Source: Hysterangium stoloniferum (taxonomy: Eukaryota > Basidiomycota > Agaricomycetes > Hysterangiales > Hysterangiaceae). Taken from it: a DNA stretch of 64,000 nucleotides. A model generated the notes under the pieces. The model was not told the origin of the DNA. It worked only from the letters and a program-made list of their open reading frames with translations, and did no database searches. This document shows positions 8,256 through 63,611 of this stretch, one piece after another. The position numbers and the translations under genes were made by a program. Positions within the stretch are counted from its first letter, which is position 1. Each line of letters opens with the position of its first letter. The stretch covers positions 558,001 to 622,000 of the forward strand of contig WHVD01000029.1 of NCBI GenBank assembly GCA_015178975.1. Direction: 5' to 3'.

Positions 8256-9067
8256 AGTTTTCTCTCTCTTTCCTTACTGTACGCTGTAACCTCCTGTATT
8301 CCATCTCAGTTCTAGACAATACACCGTGGTCCTGTTAACTCGTGTGACCACCAGTGATCTCATTGACAATGGGATTCCAATGTATGAGCAAACATGTATG
8401 CTTTACAATGCTTCCAACCCAATTTTGGTCGGTGGTCCTCTATAATCCATTAGTTGATGATGCTCCTCATGGCAACACAATCAAAACCCTTGGTGAGATT
8501 GTGTCCCTCTTCAGCTTTTGGTTTGTCAATGGCTGTCAATTCCCATCACTGAGCAGCATCTTTCACACATGGTGGCCATGACTCCTGTGGTACAAGATGC
8601 CCTTGGACCTTGCAGTAGCTGCATGGGCGACAGTTCTCTCTTCAGTGATCTGTGCCTGCTGACTCACCAGTTACTAGAGGCGTATTTCAACTATGTCATG
8701 GTCACCCTTGCTATGTACCAGGATGTGTCATCTCATAAGTAGTTCTGTATTTACAAGCCAATCCAAATATTGACTAAGTTAACCTTGAGTAAGTTTAATC
8801 TAACTAAGAATACTGACAAATCTTACTGTAATTAAGCTTGTCAGGTCTACTTCAGGACTCCCTGATCACTACTCTTATATCTTTGACCTCCTGGATTCTC
8901 TCTACTCCCAGTTCTCACCCACACCTACTAACACCTATCTCATCACCCTGTGTTCATCCAGAGCCCTTCAGCTTAACCTCTGGTCTTGGTCTGACATCAG
9001 ATCAAACAATGCACTAAGTACTCATCCATTTGAAATTAGGACAACTAAGTAGAGTTGTGAGAGTATA
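8256..9067. other. Unassigned; possibly degraded gag-type sequence
   Basis: Plus-strand frames at 8354-8581 and 8518-8742 are open but not recognisable. The stretch lies immediately left of gypsy gag sequence and may be a decayed part of it, but I see no motif that proves this. Confidence 0.25.
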
Positions 9068-22961: not shown

Positions 22962-24781
22962 AACTAATATAGTAAAAGTCCTAAATACATAACAGCCTCC
23001 ACCAGTACACATGACAACCACCATATACAGTCCTTTCCCTCCCAAATAGCTTCAAGGGCCTGCAGTTGTGTCAGTGACTTGAAACTTATGAAACTCAGAC
23101 CAGGTGAATAACAACCTTGACAGGCTTGCTGTATCACAGGGGTCAATGCTGATGTGGTTGCAAACCTGCCCAAGATAAGATTGGAAAATTGTGCCAAACT
23201 TTTCTCATAATTTTATTTAGTATGCTATTCACTTTGTGCCAAGGCATCATAGAGTTCCAGTTTCATAGCATTAAAATATGCCCCTTCCCCAGCTGTTCTG
23301 GATCTTCCCACCAATGAAGGAAGTTCCTCACTAGCTTTCTTGGCTGCATTCACCACTTCCATTCCCCGGAAACAATGAACCCCATCAGAATAATATCAAT
23401 CCTCTTCATTAGTAAACCAGAAATCTAGAGGATGGAATACCTACAGCCTGTAGTGCCCACCATTGTCTCTCCTGCACTAGTGGAAAAGAATGTTCTTCCA
23501 CCCCATAATGGTGATCTGCCACTAATGTAGAATGGCCAGCTTGCATGTCACCAATCTCATTTCATTCTCTTATCCAATCATCCTTACATTCCTCATTTCT
23601 AACCGCATATTGACAATGGTGATGATAGAGGAAGATGGTGATCTGTCAAATGGCTGCCAGCCCCAGAGTACATGCTGGTCCAAATATGTTTTTGGCACTT
23701 TGTAAGGTTATCTGTCAGAGCCTGACTTTTCCAAAGTCTAGCTGGGCCAGTAAAGAGATGGTTCTTGAAACTATGCATGATAGGCTTACTGAAGATTGCA
23801 GCAGTGATTTCCACCTCTACTGGGTGAACTAAACTCAGGTAGATGTTCAGTAAAAGGGAGACTTCTGATGGAAGAAAACATGGGATGGGCTCATCTGCCC
23901 CAGTCTGGCTTTGCTGTTTATTTGCCCTCAAAGCATTGATCACCTGTCCATTATGAAAGAACAAGGTCTGGGGGCAGTTGGGGTGGTTACAGATGCTTGT
24001 CATCATTAGTTCCATTCATCTTCCTGGTTGACCCTGAAAGAATTGGATCACAACCAAGAGAAGTTTCAAGAATTCTTGCCCATGCTTTAACCATTGGTGG
24101 CATGACACCACATTCCAGACAAACTGAGGTTCATTAGAACCAATGGGAAAGATAGTATGTCCAAAAAATTCTCAGACACCTGGTGTGAAGAGTCAACAAA
24201 GGATATTGACCATTTAGGTACAACATGATGATATATTGACTATTAAAGTACAATATAAAAGTGGAATGTGTTCAGTTGACTTAAGTAGCCATAGGATAAC
24301 TAAGATGACTAAATAAAATGGAATTGACCTCACAGTATGATTCCAAAGGGTGAGTTAACAAAGTAATGATTCTAGAAGAGATAGGATGATACGAGTAATG
24401 TGAGATAGAAACTGATGGTGAGCTTTGACTATACAGTACAAAGCTATGTAGATAGATGTTGCAGATTCAAATTGGAAGCCATTCAGGATGGCTGAGATGA
24501 TACCCCAATCACAACTTGCAGGACACTGAAAAAGGGTGTCTGGGCAAGTCATGGTTATAGGGTAAAAGTGTCTCAGTTTTTTGTTACACCCACTAGTGTA
24601 CATAAGTATACAGTATGTAAGCACTCATAAGGTCTATGTACCCACAGGCATATATAGACCTTTGAACTAATATAAATGGATGTAATCAGAGAATTAGATG
24701 ATTTAGAAAATAGTAGAAAATAAGGAGACAATGTAGGGAATATAGTCTGACAAGATAGTTACATTCCCATCCATGAAGGGT

Positions 24782-26339
24782 TGTAATGTATTAGCCTTAT
24801 TTTAATACTATTTTCCGAAAAAGGAGTCCAATGCTCTATCAAAATGTGCAAATACTCAATTCACTACAAGGTAAAATAATTTAAGTATTTGATATTAATC
24901 AGTGGCAGCCTAAATAGACTTAGAACCCCTGAAGTCAAGAGTTTACTTGAATATATGCACCCTACTTCGCAAAGAAGGTTTTGAGAGCTGCTTGTGCAAG
25001 CTTGTTCTTTTTCTGTGATAACAACTACTAAAATAAGAATAACAATTTACTGATTCCGAAGCTAGATTTAACTTCAATGCTAGCTAGTTTATATATATTT
25101 TATACTATTTGTCAAACAGTAAAAATATTTATAAACGGGTCAAAAGATTAGATATAGAATAAAACACTTATTTGGCTAATATATGCTTTATTTACACTAA
25201 CCTACAGGGTCTACTGTGATACTAACTTATCAGGATCTTAATGTAGTCTTAAGGATTCTGCAAGGATATTCTCAGTATTTGTTTATGTGAATATGCTTTA
25301 CTGATTCACAATAAATGAACAAAGGAACGGGATTATTTGCAATGTAATAAACAGTCAAATTACTCAACTAGAGGTGACTGAAGTTTACTGGAATCTTATA
25401 GAATATTCTACAATATTCTATCTATTATTAGTATCTACAATCTTACTACACTTTATCAGCCACATCAGTGTGCCACTGCAGCAAGCAGTTTATTCCACCC
25501 CTTGTTGGGCTGTTGGACAAATAAATACAAATACTTAGTCACCTCTAGTTGAGCTGCTGACCTAAGTTAACTCAGGATTCTTTGTCACCTCTTTTTGAGT
25601 AATTTGACTATAATCCTACAATCAGGATTCCCTGCCACCTCTTGTTGAGCTTCTGGTATTAATCCTTTATACTATAGTCACCTCTTAATTGAGTATTGAT
25701 TATTAGTTTTCTTTACATTGTTATTTGTAGTCTAAAACTTCAGTCACCTCTAGTTGAGTAATTTGACTGTTTATTACATTGCAAATAATCCCGTTCCTTT
25801 GTTCATTTATTGTGAATCAGTAAAGCATATTCACATAAACAAATACTGAGAATATCCTTGCAGAATCCTTAAGACTACATTAAGATCCTGATAAGTTAGT
25901 ATCACAGTAGACCCTGTAGGTTAGTGTAAATAAAGCATATATTAGCCAAATAAGTGTTTTATTCTATATCTAATCTTTTGACCCGTTTATAAATATTTTT
26001 ACTGTTTGACAAATAGTATAAAATATATATAAACTAGCTAGCATTGAAGTTAAATCTAGCTTCGGAATCAGTAAATTGTTATTCTTATTTTAGTAGTTGT
26101 TATCACAGAAAAAGAACAAGCTTGCACAAGCAGCTCTCAAAACCTTCTTTGCGAAGTAGGGTGCATATATTCAAGTAAACTCTTGACTTCAGGGGTTCTA
26201 AGTCTATTTAGGCCGCCACTGATTAATATCAAATACTTAAATTATTTTACCTTGTAGTGAATTGAGTATTTGCACATTTTGATAGAGCATTGGACTCCTT
26301 TTTCGGAAAATAGTATTAAAATAAGGCTAATACATTACA
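24782..26339. mobile_element. Foldback element, 605-bp inverted arms, Ginger-like ends
   Basis: The left arm 24782-25386 and right arm 25735-26339 are reverse complements of equal length, with only one mismatch noticed by eye (CAGTGGCAGCC against CAGTGGCGGCC). The outer ends are TGTAATGTATTAGCC and GGCTAATACATTACA; the 5-bp duplication AGGGT flanks it (24777-24781, 26340-26344). The 348-base centre has no gene but repeats the word TCACCTCTAGTTGAG in several variants. TGTnR...YnACA ends with a 4-5 bp duplication are described for Ginger-type DNA transposons, whose transposase resembles gypsy integrase, so this is best read as a non-autonomous member; that class assignment is inference. Confidence 0.8.
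25387..25734. other. Central spacer of the foldback element
   Basis: 348 bases, AT-rich, without coding. Variants of CACCTCTAGTTGAG occur at about 25540, 25588, 25641 and 25679, with further copies just inside each arm (25368-25382 inverted, 25743-25757). Such spaced short repeats could be transposase binding sites; this is a guess. Confidence 0.6.
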
Positions 26340-26354
26340 AGGGTACTGCTCACA

Positions 26355-26424
26355 CCTGGTACTTTTGATTGTAAAAAGAGTGCCATTAAGGCTGACCTAT
26401 GTAGCTCTTTGAACTGGGGGGCAC
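26355..26424 (+). mobile_element. 3' end of a gypsy element with purine tract
   Basis: Fossil. The 14 bases GAACTGGGGGGCAC directly precede the LTR at 26425, exactly as in the elements ending at 45175 and 61675. The matching piece before the solo LTR (CAGACACCTGG, about 24173-24183) is the same element's sequence. The rest of the element is missing. Confidence 0.6.
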
Positions 26425-27391
26425 TGTGAGGGGTGCCCTAGGAAATATAATTATTCTACTGTATTATATTTCACATATTTTTCCTTATTTTTCTACCATT
26501 TTTCTAGTTAGGATATTCTTCATATAGCCTCATTTTCATTACTATATATACTTGTGGCTACATAGACTGTTGTGGGTTCACACATACTGTAGTTTTGTGT
26601 ACACTAGGCACAAGTAATATTCAGACACTTTTACCCCATAACCACAATTTGCCATAGACATCATTTAGAGTGTCCACTGCAAGCTGTGATTGGGGTATCA
26701 TCTCAGCCATCCCAAATGGCTATTACTTGAACTCTAATGTTTCTCTCTCAGCTTTGTACTTTACAGTTGAAGCTTAGAGTTCATCACTTAAACTGACTCA
26801 TAGCCATCAACACTTCCTCACATCTGTCAGGGCTCTGAATATTTTTCTTGTTTTTTAATCTCTGTTTAAATTTGTGTTTAGTTTAGTTTATTTTGTCACA
26901 TGATACACACATGTCAAAATATTGAGTTTAAACTTTATTTAGTTTTGCTTTAGTATAAATACTTCAGGATGCACATAACTAGACCCCAGTTTCAATCTCT
27001 TAGGATTTCCACTAAACACAAGTGTGATATTCTTAAGTCATTAGAACTTCTATCCCTCTATCCCTTATCCTTGTCTTCCTTTCCTTCTTTGTGTTTTGGT
27101 AGCCTTGTTAGTGTTTTCCTAACAATTTTGTCCTAACAACATCCTTCCATTCTCTGCTGTAAACCATCTTACTCTGTTTCATTGGACTAGATCCATTAGG
27201 AATTGTACTGTTAAAGGTCAATTCTGTTTTCTTATCTTAGTTGCCTTCAGCTACTGTACAGTTGCTTATAGTGATTGACACATTTTATACTTGTATTGTA
27301 CTTTAATAGTCAATGCATCTGTATCATACCTAGAAGGTCAATATTCTTTGTACAGTATATTAAACAGTTAGAATCCTAATGACTCTTCACA
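26425..27391 (+). mobile_element. 3' LTR (TGTGAGGGG...CTCTTCACA), with a nested LTR
   Basis: It begins TGTGAGGGGTGCC after a purine tract and ends GACTCTTCACA. After removal of the nested LTR (26825-27138) and one duplication it is about 648 bp. It contains the family words CAGACACTTTTACCCC and GATTGGGGTATCATCTCAGC. The right flank is Tc1 sequence; no left duplication is expected because the left side is internal sequence. Confidence 0.8.
26825..27138 (+). mobile_element. Solo LTR (TGTCAGGG...CCTAACA), 314 bp
   Basis: TGTCAGGGCTCTG to TTGTCCTAACA with the duplication ACATC on both sides (26820-26824, 27139-27143). It matches the LTR stub after the chromodomain fragment at 20024-20062, so it belongs to that chromovirus family. 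Confidence 0.88.
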
Positions 27392-27471
27392 TGAAGTGCC
27401 TTGGGAAGCTTGGTGGGGATGTCCACCAGAGGATTTGGGGAGGTCAGGACAATGCTCAGAGCAAATATGAC

Positions 27472-28094
27472 TGTGAGAGGTACTGTGAAATATATTCCAA
27501 AATATACATAGTCTGGACAGGCCCACACTATATTTCAATTATTATTTCTATTTCTCTCTATTTTATCATATGCATATATTAGTTTGATGATCTATGTACT
27601 CCTATGGGTACATAGACTCTTGTGGGCACATACACACTAGACCAATGTACTTTAGCACCTGTAATTGAAACTCAGACACTTTTTACCCCACAACCATGAC
27701 TTACCCAGACACTCCTTTAGTGTACTGTAAGTCATGACTGGGGTATCATCTCAGCCATCCTGAATGGCTTACAACTGAATCCACCATTGCTATCTAGCTT
27801 TGCACTGAATAGTCGAAGCTTGAACTACTGTCAGTTTCAACTCACACTTTATAGCACTTGTATTAAGCTCCTTCTCTTTCAACTCATTACTTAGTTGATT
27901 CACTTCCTGGAATCATACTGCAAAGTCAATTCTGTTCCTTTAGGTCGACTTAGGTGTCTTACCAGTGCTAAGTTGACCAGAACTATTTATTTCATATATT
28001 GTACTTGATAGTCAATATGTATATTGTCATGTCATACCTAAGCAGTCAATATTCTTCATATATAGAACAGTTATAACTTCCACAACTCTTCACA
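27472..28094 (+). mobile_element. Solo LTR, 623 bp, in Tc1 copy 2
   Basis: TGTGAGAGGTACTG to ACAACTCTTCACA, flanked by ATGAC (27467-27471, 28095-28099). Tc1 sequence resumes immediately (compare 17220-17235). It is closely related to the 3' LTR at 45176-45800. Confidence 0.92.
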
Positions 28095-51639: not shown

Positions 51640-52585
51640 TCACTCATTGGAACAATTTTTTGACCCTATATTATTTTAACAGAAAAGCCACTATTTCAGT
51701 AAAAATATAAGTCTAAACCAATTGTAGTAATAATGAACATGTCATGTGACTTTGTTTACATCTGTTTGACATGTTGACAGTTGGTTCAACCACTTCTTAG
51801 CTTTTACCATCACTATGAAAACTATTTCTGCTACTCAGCACTTTAATATTATCTCTCTTCTCCCAGAGGGGTGTTCCTATCCTCAAATCCAGACTAACAC
51901 TGACTCAGAAGGGATACAATAAGTGTGATCAAGGTTGAAGTACTTTTGGATAAAGAAAAAACCCCAGCTGGCCATCCTTCCAAGCTTATTACTCAACAAC
52001 AAATAGTCAATTGTCTATCAAATTAGCTCTGGAAATCTTGACAACACTGTTCAAGCTACCCAATTCATTAATTGTACTATCCCCAACTCTGTCACTCCCC
52101 AAACAGTCAGGAATGTACTCAAGAACAATGGTTTTTACACTGCAACAAAGAAGAAAGTACCCATGTTGAAGAAGACTCATTATCAGAAGTCACTTACTTG
52201 AGTTTGCTCAGTACTATGAAAACTGGAATATGACACCTTTCTACCGGCAATTTTGTTAATATTGGTCTTATCTATCCACAACACTCTTTTGGAGTCCCCT
52301 ACAATCCAGGTTTTATGGTACTAAGCAAACTCAAGTCACTTCTGATAATGAGCCTTCTTCAACATGGGTGCTTTCTTCTTTGTTGCAAAGTAAAAACCAT
52401 TGTTCTTGAGTACATTCCTGACTGTTTGGGGAGTGACAGATTTGGGGATAGTAGAATTAATGAATTGGGTAGCTTGAACAGCATTGTCAAGATTTCTAGA
52501 GCTAATTTGATGGACAATTGATATTGTATAACTTGTTTTTCAGTTGCACAATGTGTTTTACAGTGGCTCAAAAAATTGTTCCAAT
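51640..52585 (+). mobile_element. Tc1-like element, N-terminal half plus inverted copy
   Basis: The edges CATTGGAACAATTTTTTGA (about 51645) and TCAAAAAATTGTTCCAATG (about 52564) are inverted repeats. The plus strand from 51815 encodes a Tc1 DNA-binding start (ISATQHFNIISLLPEGCSYP, then GNLDNTVQATQFINCTIPNS and VRNVLKNNGFYTATKKK). From about 52320 to 52545 the same segment returns in reverse complement. The catalytic domain is missing. The coding part has stops and at least one frame change. The inverted arrangement could come from an aberrant transposition or a gap-repair event. Confidence 0.65.
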
Positions 52586-58477: not shown

Positions 58478-59180
58478 ATAGGTGCACTGCATAGGTGCAC
58501 TGTGTAGGTGCACTGCATAGGTGCACTGTGTAGGTGCACTGCATAGGTGCACTGTGTAGGTGCACTGTGTAGGTGCACTGTGTAGGTGCACTGTGTAGGT
58601 GCACTGTGTAGGTGCACTGTGTAGGTGCACTGTGTAGGTGCACTGTGTAGGTGCACTGTGTAGGTGCACTGTGTAGGTGCACTGTGTAGGTGCACTGTGT
58701 AGGTGCACTGTGTAGGTGCACTGTGTAGGTGCACTGTGTAGGTGCACTGTGTAGGTGCACTGTGTAGGTGCACTGTGTAGGTGCACTGTGTAGGTGCACT
58801 GTGTAGGTGCACTGTGTAGGTGCACTGCGTAGGTGCACTGCGTAGGTGCACTGCGTAGGTGCACTGCGTAGGTGCACTGCGTAGGTGCACTGCGTAGGTG
58901 CACTGCGTAGGTGCACTGCGTAGGTGCACTGCGTAGGTGCACTGCGTAGGTGCACTGCGTAGGTGCACTGCGTAGGTGCACTGCGTAGGTGCACTGCGTA
59001 GGTGCACTGCGTAGGTGCACTGCGTAGGTGCACTGCGTAGGTGCACTGCGTAGGTGCACTGCGTAGGTGCACTGCGTAGGTGCACTGCGTAGGTGCACTG
59101 CGTAGGTGCACTGCGTAGGTGCACTGCGTAGGTGCACTGCGTAGGTGCACTGCGTAGGTGCACTCCATAGGTGCACTGTG
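58478..59180. repeat. 13-base minisatellite, about 53 copies
   Basis: Unit GGTGCACTGNGTA in three variants: the left end alternates GCATA and TGTGTA forms, then a uniform block of TGTGTA units (to about 58825), then a uniform block of TGCGTA units (to about 59163). Since 13 is not a multiple of three and no unit contains a stop, all three minus-strand frames are open through it, producing long frames (up to 567 codons at 58008-59711) that should not be taken as genes. Confidence 0.95.
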
Positions 59181-63252: not shown

Positions 63253-63611
63253 GAGACTACATGAAGATCCTGATAAGTTAGTATCACAGTAGATCTGGTA
63301 GGTTGGTTCAAATAAAGCATATATTAGCCAAATCTAGTTTTGGAATCAGTGAATTGTTATTCATATTTTAGTAATTGTTTTCACAGAAAGAGAACAGCTT
63401 GCAAAAGCAGCTCTCAAAACTTCTTTGCGAAGTAGGGTGCATATTCAAGTAAACTCTTGACTTCAGGGGTTCTAAGTATTCAGGCTGCACTGATTAATAT
63501 CAAATACTTAAATTATTCTACCTTGCAGTGAATTGAGTATTTGCACATTTTGATAGAGCATTGGATTCCTTTTTCCAGAAGATAGCATTAAAATAAGGCT
63601 AATACATCACA
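63253..63611 (+). mobile_element. One-arm fragment related to the foldback element
   Basis: ACTACATGAAGATCCTGATA to GGCTAATACATCACA corresponds to 25875-26339 (the right arm) at roughly 90 percent identity by eye, with several deletions. Only one arm is present; the outer end is kept and the inner end is cut. Confidence 0.75.

Follow-up and report, generated by a model that had tools for sequence, protein, structure and literature searches.

The window, a stretch of 64,000 nucleotides, carries a 1,558-bp foldback whose inverted arms end in TGTAATG and CATTACA, and the question it raises is whether this structure is a mobile element in its own right or a derivative of another one. The preliminary description had read it as a long-arm DNA transposon of the Ginger type, and had offered two LTRs joined head to head as the alternative. 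Its account of two equal, near-identical 605-bp arms with these termini is borne out, with a single mismatch at arm position 126 (604/605 identical), and the one difference in 605 supports its view that the insertion is recent. The coordinates of all features are collected in Table 1.

Table 1. Positions of the features described in the text (window positions unless a locus or contig is named)
Feature	Position	Strand	Remarks
Left target-site duplication AGGGT	24777-24781	.	adjoins left arm
Left arm, U5-terminal 605 bp of LTR	24782-25386	-	minus strand reads CATTACA at end
Short U3 segment	25387-25438	-	LTR ~1098-1151 counted from U5 end; orientation as left arm
Fold junction	25438-25439	.	minus-sense U3 abuts plus-sense R start
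R-U5 segment, ~901 nt	25439-26339	+	predicted RNA start to U5 end; includes right arm
Right arm, 605 bp	25735-26339	+	within R-U5 segment
Right target-site duplication AGGGT	26340-26344	.	adjoins right arm
Diverged truncated U5 end of related LTR	63254-63611	+	~91%; outside palindrome
Long ORF, protease + integrase-like parts	L040:3025-6540		1,172 aa
Long ORF, protease + integrase-like parts	L093:239-3775		layout as L040
U3-outward LTR palindrome	G000:C246:208407-212379 (L061)		3.97 kb, perfect

The LTR family behind the arms

The window's own genome (G000; 111 Mb, 554 contigs) was searched with one arm, which yielded 959 candidates. Among the best 40 of these, 38 are other copies, nearly all of which match positions 1-603 of the arm at 99% or more. 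In loci L039 and L040 the arm is part of a directly oriented repeat of about 2 kb, which starts with TGTTATGTATT and ends with AATACATTACA. In L040 one LTR spans 775-2784 and the other starts at 8595 and is cut off by the end of the locus; protease and integrase ORFs lie between them. An arm in direct orientation around gag/pol was the arrangement that the preliminary description had named as speaking against its transposon reading, and it is found in L040. Perfect 5-bp duplications border 17 of the 24 distinct LTRs with both ends in the fetched loci; among the other seven, three run into the primer-binding site (PBS), two are preceded by a polypurine stretch, one matches at 4/5 positions and one is mismatched. 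The 18-nt PBS, TGGTGGACGCTCTGGGAA, lies 3 nt after the LTR in L040 and is complementary to 18 nt at the 3' end of tRNA-Ala(CGC), CCA included, and a one-base variant of it occurs in L005 and L042. Copies of the family also occur as solo LTRs with 5-bp duplications. Because direct LTRs enclose gag-protease-integrase and solo LTRs carry 5-bp duplications, the arm is the 3' (U5) end of the ~2-kb LTR of a Ty3/gypsy-type retrotransposon. A single arm at 63253-63611 had been taken as a sign that the foldback belongs to a family; a family it is, of LTRs and not of foldbacks.

The base directly after exact U5 ends (n = 256) is G in 112, A in 75, C in 57 and T in 12 cases, the count for A including LTRs that lead into the AAT of the PBS region. 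So strong a bias at the first base after the LTR suggests a target-site preference.

In the single long ORFs of the internal regions of L040 and L093, the protease leads directly to the integrase in place of the order RT-RH-IN. A fragment of the L040 ORF matches the aspartic protease family PF13975 (E 0.0012, a weak match below Pfam's cut-off), and a Pfam scan of the whole ORF returned nothing at E 0.01. For the integrase core of L040 the closest solved structure is Ty3 Gag-Pol 7q5b (E 1.7e-15), with foamy-virus integrase as a weaker match, and the same part resembles the canonical integrase ORF in L039 (E 4e-14). The probable gypsy affinity of the LTR family rests on this integrase. Inspection by eye found a CCHC-like motif in the gag-like part and an altered second catalytic Asp of the integrase in both L040 and L093. 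No reverse transcriptase was recognised between protease and integrase in these two internal regions, with Pfam applied to L040. The two copies apparently belong to a non-autonomous, RT-less lineage, and given the altered integrase Asp, the reverse transcriptase and integrase at work would have been supplied by some other copy.

Structure and insertion of the window element

The anatomy of the window element was read against L042/L010, the nearest full LTR seen (98%). The left arm is 98.2% identical to this LTR at its U5 end, the R-U5 segment 98.3% identical to the LTR of L042 over 904 columns, and the short U3 segment, with BLAST boundaries at 25385-25448, 96.9% identical to L042. LTR positions ~606-1097 are absent between the left arm and the short U3 segment. 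The resulting deletion joint (605 to 1098) has no second occurrence in the genome at up to three mismatches, and as read by eye from the letters, AA alone is common to its two sides. Splicing was considered as the source of this inner deletion, a GTAAGT-like donor being present there, and was dropped since the joint, by eye, is unlike a splice product. The geneless 348-base centre of the preliminary description keeps its length and its lack of a gene between the arms, but it consists of LTR sequence and not of filler, and the alternative of two LTRs joined head to head was right as anatomy. A normal LTR insertion ends in U3 on one side and in U5 on the other; the window element instead shows outward-pointing U5 ends on both sides of a head-to-head joint, and the U3 terminus is absent. 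Because both termini are U5, the element is classed as an aberrant product of the LTR family and not as a normal member.

The near identity of the arms was compared with that of other copies. Of 33 further U5 ends that were sampled, the closest has five differences from the right arm. Among the 33, single-position differences separate 4/528 pairs, and among the ten closest copies four of the 45 possible pairs differ at one position only. One difference between the arms alone does not prove a single template, because 4/528 pairs among other U5 ends are equally close. No private arm variant was found, every variant of the arms occurring among the 33 sampled copies, so that the case for a common origin of the arms rests on their overall similarity and on the empty sites.

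These empty sites were identified in the same genome with a query in which both window flanks were joined at a single AGGGT. Two paralogous sites, C212:702490-702806 (99%) and C527:24980-25297 (97%), match the joined flanks end to end, and inspection of their letters showed one AGGGT and uninterrupted flanks in both. The perfect AGGGT duplication noted earlier outside the arms is thus confirmed, and because the empty sites carry AGGGT once, the 1,558-bp palindrome was inserted as one unit with a 5-bp duplication. It also follows from the empty sites that the head-to-head joint predates the insertion.

The flanks at 23342-24781 and 26340-27984 recur at C212:702490 and C527:24980 with 97-99% identity where aligned, about 1.2-1.7 kb being seen per side. 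Since the same sequence is found in at least two further copies, the flanks of the window element appear to be duplicated or mobile themselves.

The frequency of such structures was assessed from the exact 15-base U5 end, which occurs 256 times in the genome; 244 of these occurrences were listed by position, the other 12 being G-type ends on late contigs. Among the 244, the window holds the only U5-outward neighbour pair closer than 3 kb, and five others lie within 10 kb. Four of these five (C5, C37, C46 and C533; 5.9-8.4 kb) were checked for matching flanking 5-mers and have none. A palindrome origin was rejected for these four, whose differing flanks indicate independent insertions; the fifth lies on C29 with a spacing of 9.4 kb. 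Facing pairs with a spacer of 15-45 nt, in a search that took in diverged ends, occur on C246 and C513 only. On C513 the left LTR has its own duplication, GCCAA, so that this pair was set aside as two insertions. Close pairs in the same direction on C4, C2 and C523 were considered as further aberrant cDNAs and rejected, having truncated LTR ends and no matching duplication. On C35 two LTRs face each other across 500 bp of other DNA, and the two stretches fetched there showed no U3 end. No repeated foldback structure was found, the inner joint being unique and the window pair the sole close one among 244 of 256 exact ends. Both palindromes, that of the window and that on C246, are rare by-products with one example each and not a replicating family.

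A tRNA-centred palindrome and the position of the fold

The palindrome on C246 is the mirror image of the window element. Two facing LTRs of 1,966 bp each, with 0 differences, lie 41 nt apart with U5 inside and U3 outside, and the outer 5-mers are GACTC on both sides. The 41-nt centre consists of an A, 37 nt of the 3' part of tRNA-Ala(CGC) with CCA, and ATT, which complements the AAT between U5 and PBS. One of the LTRs is extended by the copied tRNA piece, and its partner ends at U5 with a single A added, the joint reading CATTACA/ACGAA. This joint could result from integrase-mediated end joining. Three tRNA-Ala genes match the centre, at C1:3394310, at C1:3394519 (one mismatch) and at C356:440714, as identified by Rfam and by ARAGORN allowing introns; both of the genes run in ARAGORN, of the three, have a 9-nt intron. 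Without introns ARAGORN reported zero tRNAs in four loci, because the genes contain introns. The CCA is encoded in none of the three matching genes. Because the CCA is non-genomic, the centre points to copying from a mature tRNA primer. A one-base difference between the tRNA copy and the PBS was considered as diagnostic and dropped, since PBS copies vary at that base. Interstitial TAACCC-like repeats lie ~270 bp to the left of the palindrome.

The fold of the window element lies 39 nt past the start of a conserved TATA motif, TATATAAGG (measured in L010), which was found in 39 of 43 LTR rows when up to one mismatch was allowed at 800-1200 from the U5 end, the rows including the C246 and C513 duplicates. 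In ten young copies aligned over 1,250 bp, 40 of the 46 columns from +29 to +75 of the motif are variable, as against 108/1247 elsewhere, and the fold falls in this hypervariable patch of the related LTRs. The patch is A-rich and begins 27-30 nt beyond TATATAAGGAGCTCAGCTCCAGCCTTG, a block that is strictly conserved; examples are found at L040:1736 and L040:9531 and in loci L003-L008, L039 and L061. It differs between most insertions, yet it is identical in both LTRs of L040. L003 and L005 share one patch, and their arms differ at one position. The fold coincides with the RNA 5' end predicted from these motifs, and minus-strand strong-stop DNA would be expected to have its 3' end there. A hypervariable patch would be expected if RNA starts there and each first-strand transfer leaves its own mark, and the patch could then serve as a per-insertion tag and as a mark of the RNA start.

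Origin of the palindromes

The window element is interpreted, with a probability of roughly 80%, as an aberrant reverse-transcription product of the retrotransposon with ~2-kb LTRs, formed by a strong-stop route and integrated as a unit. Minus-strand strong-stop DNA, which comprises R-U5 and ends at the RNA 5' end, would have missed the normal strand transfer. Through a brief and imperfect pairing of TAGTAAGAT with TAGTAGAT, read by eye from the letters of the joint, its 3' end may have mis-annealed to a second minus strand, within U3. Extension would then run to the 5' U5 end of the second strand, with ~490 nt skipped on the way, and second-strand fill-in would give a linear duplex with U5 at both tips. 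Integrase would process both U5 tips and insert the duplex with the usual 5-bp stagger, here AGGGT; integrase is the likely inserter because exact LTR termini and 5-bp duplications are seen as in ordinary copies. Two template molecules are proposed because the right half holds LTR positions that are missing from the left, unless these were deleted later, and the window copy needs two template switches, namely the fold and the 490-nt skip.

For C246, a plus-strand strong-stop DNA with 37 nt of tRNA-Ala would have been joined end to end with another that had stopped at U5, and the duplex inserted through its two U3 ends at GACTC. In a general scheme, strong-stop 3' ends would prime each other, minus-strand products giving U5-U5 and plus-strand products U3-U3 palindromes. 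It is considered rather probable, with less assurance than the origin of the window element, that strong-stop cDNAs, which textbooks treat as dead ends of reverse transcription, extend on each other in the particle and that integrase inserts the like-ended palindromes naturally and with normal duplications, with C246 as a fossil of both plus-strand strong-stop kinds and the patch as a mark of each single insertion, made by untemplated or slipped synthesis where the RNA has its 5' end.

A single strand may also have sufficed for the window element. If one strong-stop DNA copied itself by snapback, and the hairpin was opened or replicated, one molecule would likewise yield two U5 ends and near-identical arms. 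The centre would have been trimmed later in the chromosome, and the centres of long palindromes are prone to deletion. The 490-nt skip could indeed be such a later deletion, in which case the arms could be put down to one strand snapping back on itself. This course is nevertheless unlikely, given that LTR positions 606-901 are present in the right half only, which makes a later 490-nt deletion necessary, and that a hairpin is open at one end only, so that a further step must precede two-ended integration. Autointegration, in which integrase joins a processed LTR end into another cDNA and the product is then inserted, fits one feature of C246, where the left LTR stops exactly at CATTACA beside ACGAA as strand transfer predicts; both autointegration and circles that contain inverted segments are mentioned in PMC5314604. 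It would leave the window unexplained, as the inner joints there have no LTR terminus, and the partner at C246 must still be a tRNA-tailed plus-strand product, which together make it a quite improbable source.

Two opposite LTR insertions that arose independently and were fused by deletion of the intervening DNA are conceivable in so abundant a family (256 exact U5 ends), and inverted neighbours exist, such as the C513 pair and the pairs at 6-8 kb with unmatched flanks. Matching outer 5-mers together with two empty sites holding a single AGGGT would then be a coincidence, the arms differ at 1/605, and the LTR terminus is absent from both inner joints, so that such a history is highly improbable. 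The TGTAATG/CATTACA ends, the 5-bp duplication and the long inverted arms would all suit a cut-and-paste DNA transposon, Ginger-like or otherwise, that is bounded by long terminal inverted repeats. That reading is hardly tenable in the face of the other arm copies, which are LTRs with unlike U3 and U5 ends in direct orientation around gag-protease-integrase and belong to a family with PBS, polypurine tract and solo-LTR forms. Moreover, no second close U5-outward pair exists among 244 of the 256 U5 ends, and the 1,558 bp hold no integrase-like transposase gene between the arms.

The palindromes share traits with several known systems. With solo LTRs and LTR elements of the Ty3/gypsy type, the window element has in common the LTR sequence, the U5 terminus and the 5-bp duplication; in a solo LTR, however, the ends are of different kinds, U3 and U5, whereas those of the window element are both U5 and those of C246 both U3. 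DIRS-type and foldback elements have inverted terminal repeats as well, but they are families that propagate with that structure, whereas the window and C246 each provide a single instance. In vitro, concerted integration with a pair of U5 ends or a pair of U3 ends is already known and indicates that identical ends suffice for integrase; the products here differ in being genomic, covalent palindromes.

Junctions of 2-LTR circles are also known, and as described in PMC1905944 and PMC5314604 they resemble the present cases in that LTR ends meet outside a provirus and are recognised by integrase. Such circles have a U5-U3 joint between LTRs of the same direction, whereas here whole LTRs are inverted with like ends outward. 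In the polypurine-tract recycling model for Ty1 and Ty3 (PMC5371799), plus-strand strong-stop DNA comes in two forms, an initial one that runs 12 nt into the tRNA and a later one that stops at U5; the review also reports a build-up of dead-end plus-strand strong-stop products inside particles. C246 resembles one product of each kind joined together, but with 37 nt of tRNA copied instead of 12, and as a joined pair in a chromosome instead of dead-end intermediates. No report of naturally integrated like-ended LTR palindromes was recognised in the open-access literature, represented mostly by titles and the beginnings of abstracts.

If the proposed origin is true, such insertions preserve reverse-transcription intermediates that are normally confined to particles: they record where the strong-stop 3' end lay, how much of the tRNA was copied and both kinds of plus-strand strong-stop DNA. 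C246 would then fossilise products of the Ty1/Ty3 model in a genome distant from that of budding yeast, and the palindromes would be natural-genome evidence that integrase accepts two identical LTR ends. Insertions of this kind would also give rise to long perfect palindromes, which repeat annotation would class as DNA transposons. Similar insertions would be searchable in any assembled genome as like LTR ends pointing outward with one duplication and a fold at the RNA start or a tRNA centre.

Within the window itself, the 605-bp arms far exceed the other near-perfect inverted pairs (25 longest of 35 pairs compared). A second inverted repeat at 52007-52521 has 189-nt arms that are 94% complementary, lie 137 nt apart and are unlike the LTR, and a tandem repeat at ~58500-58900 (L058) has units resembling GTAGGTGCACTGT.
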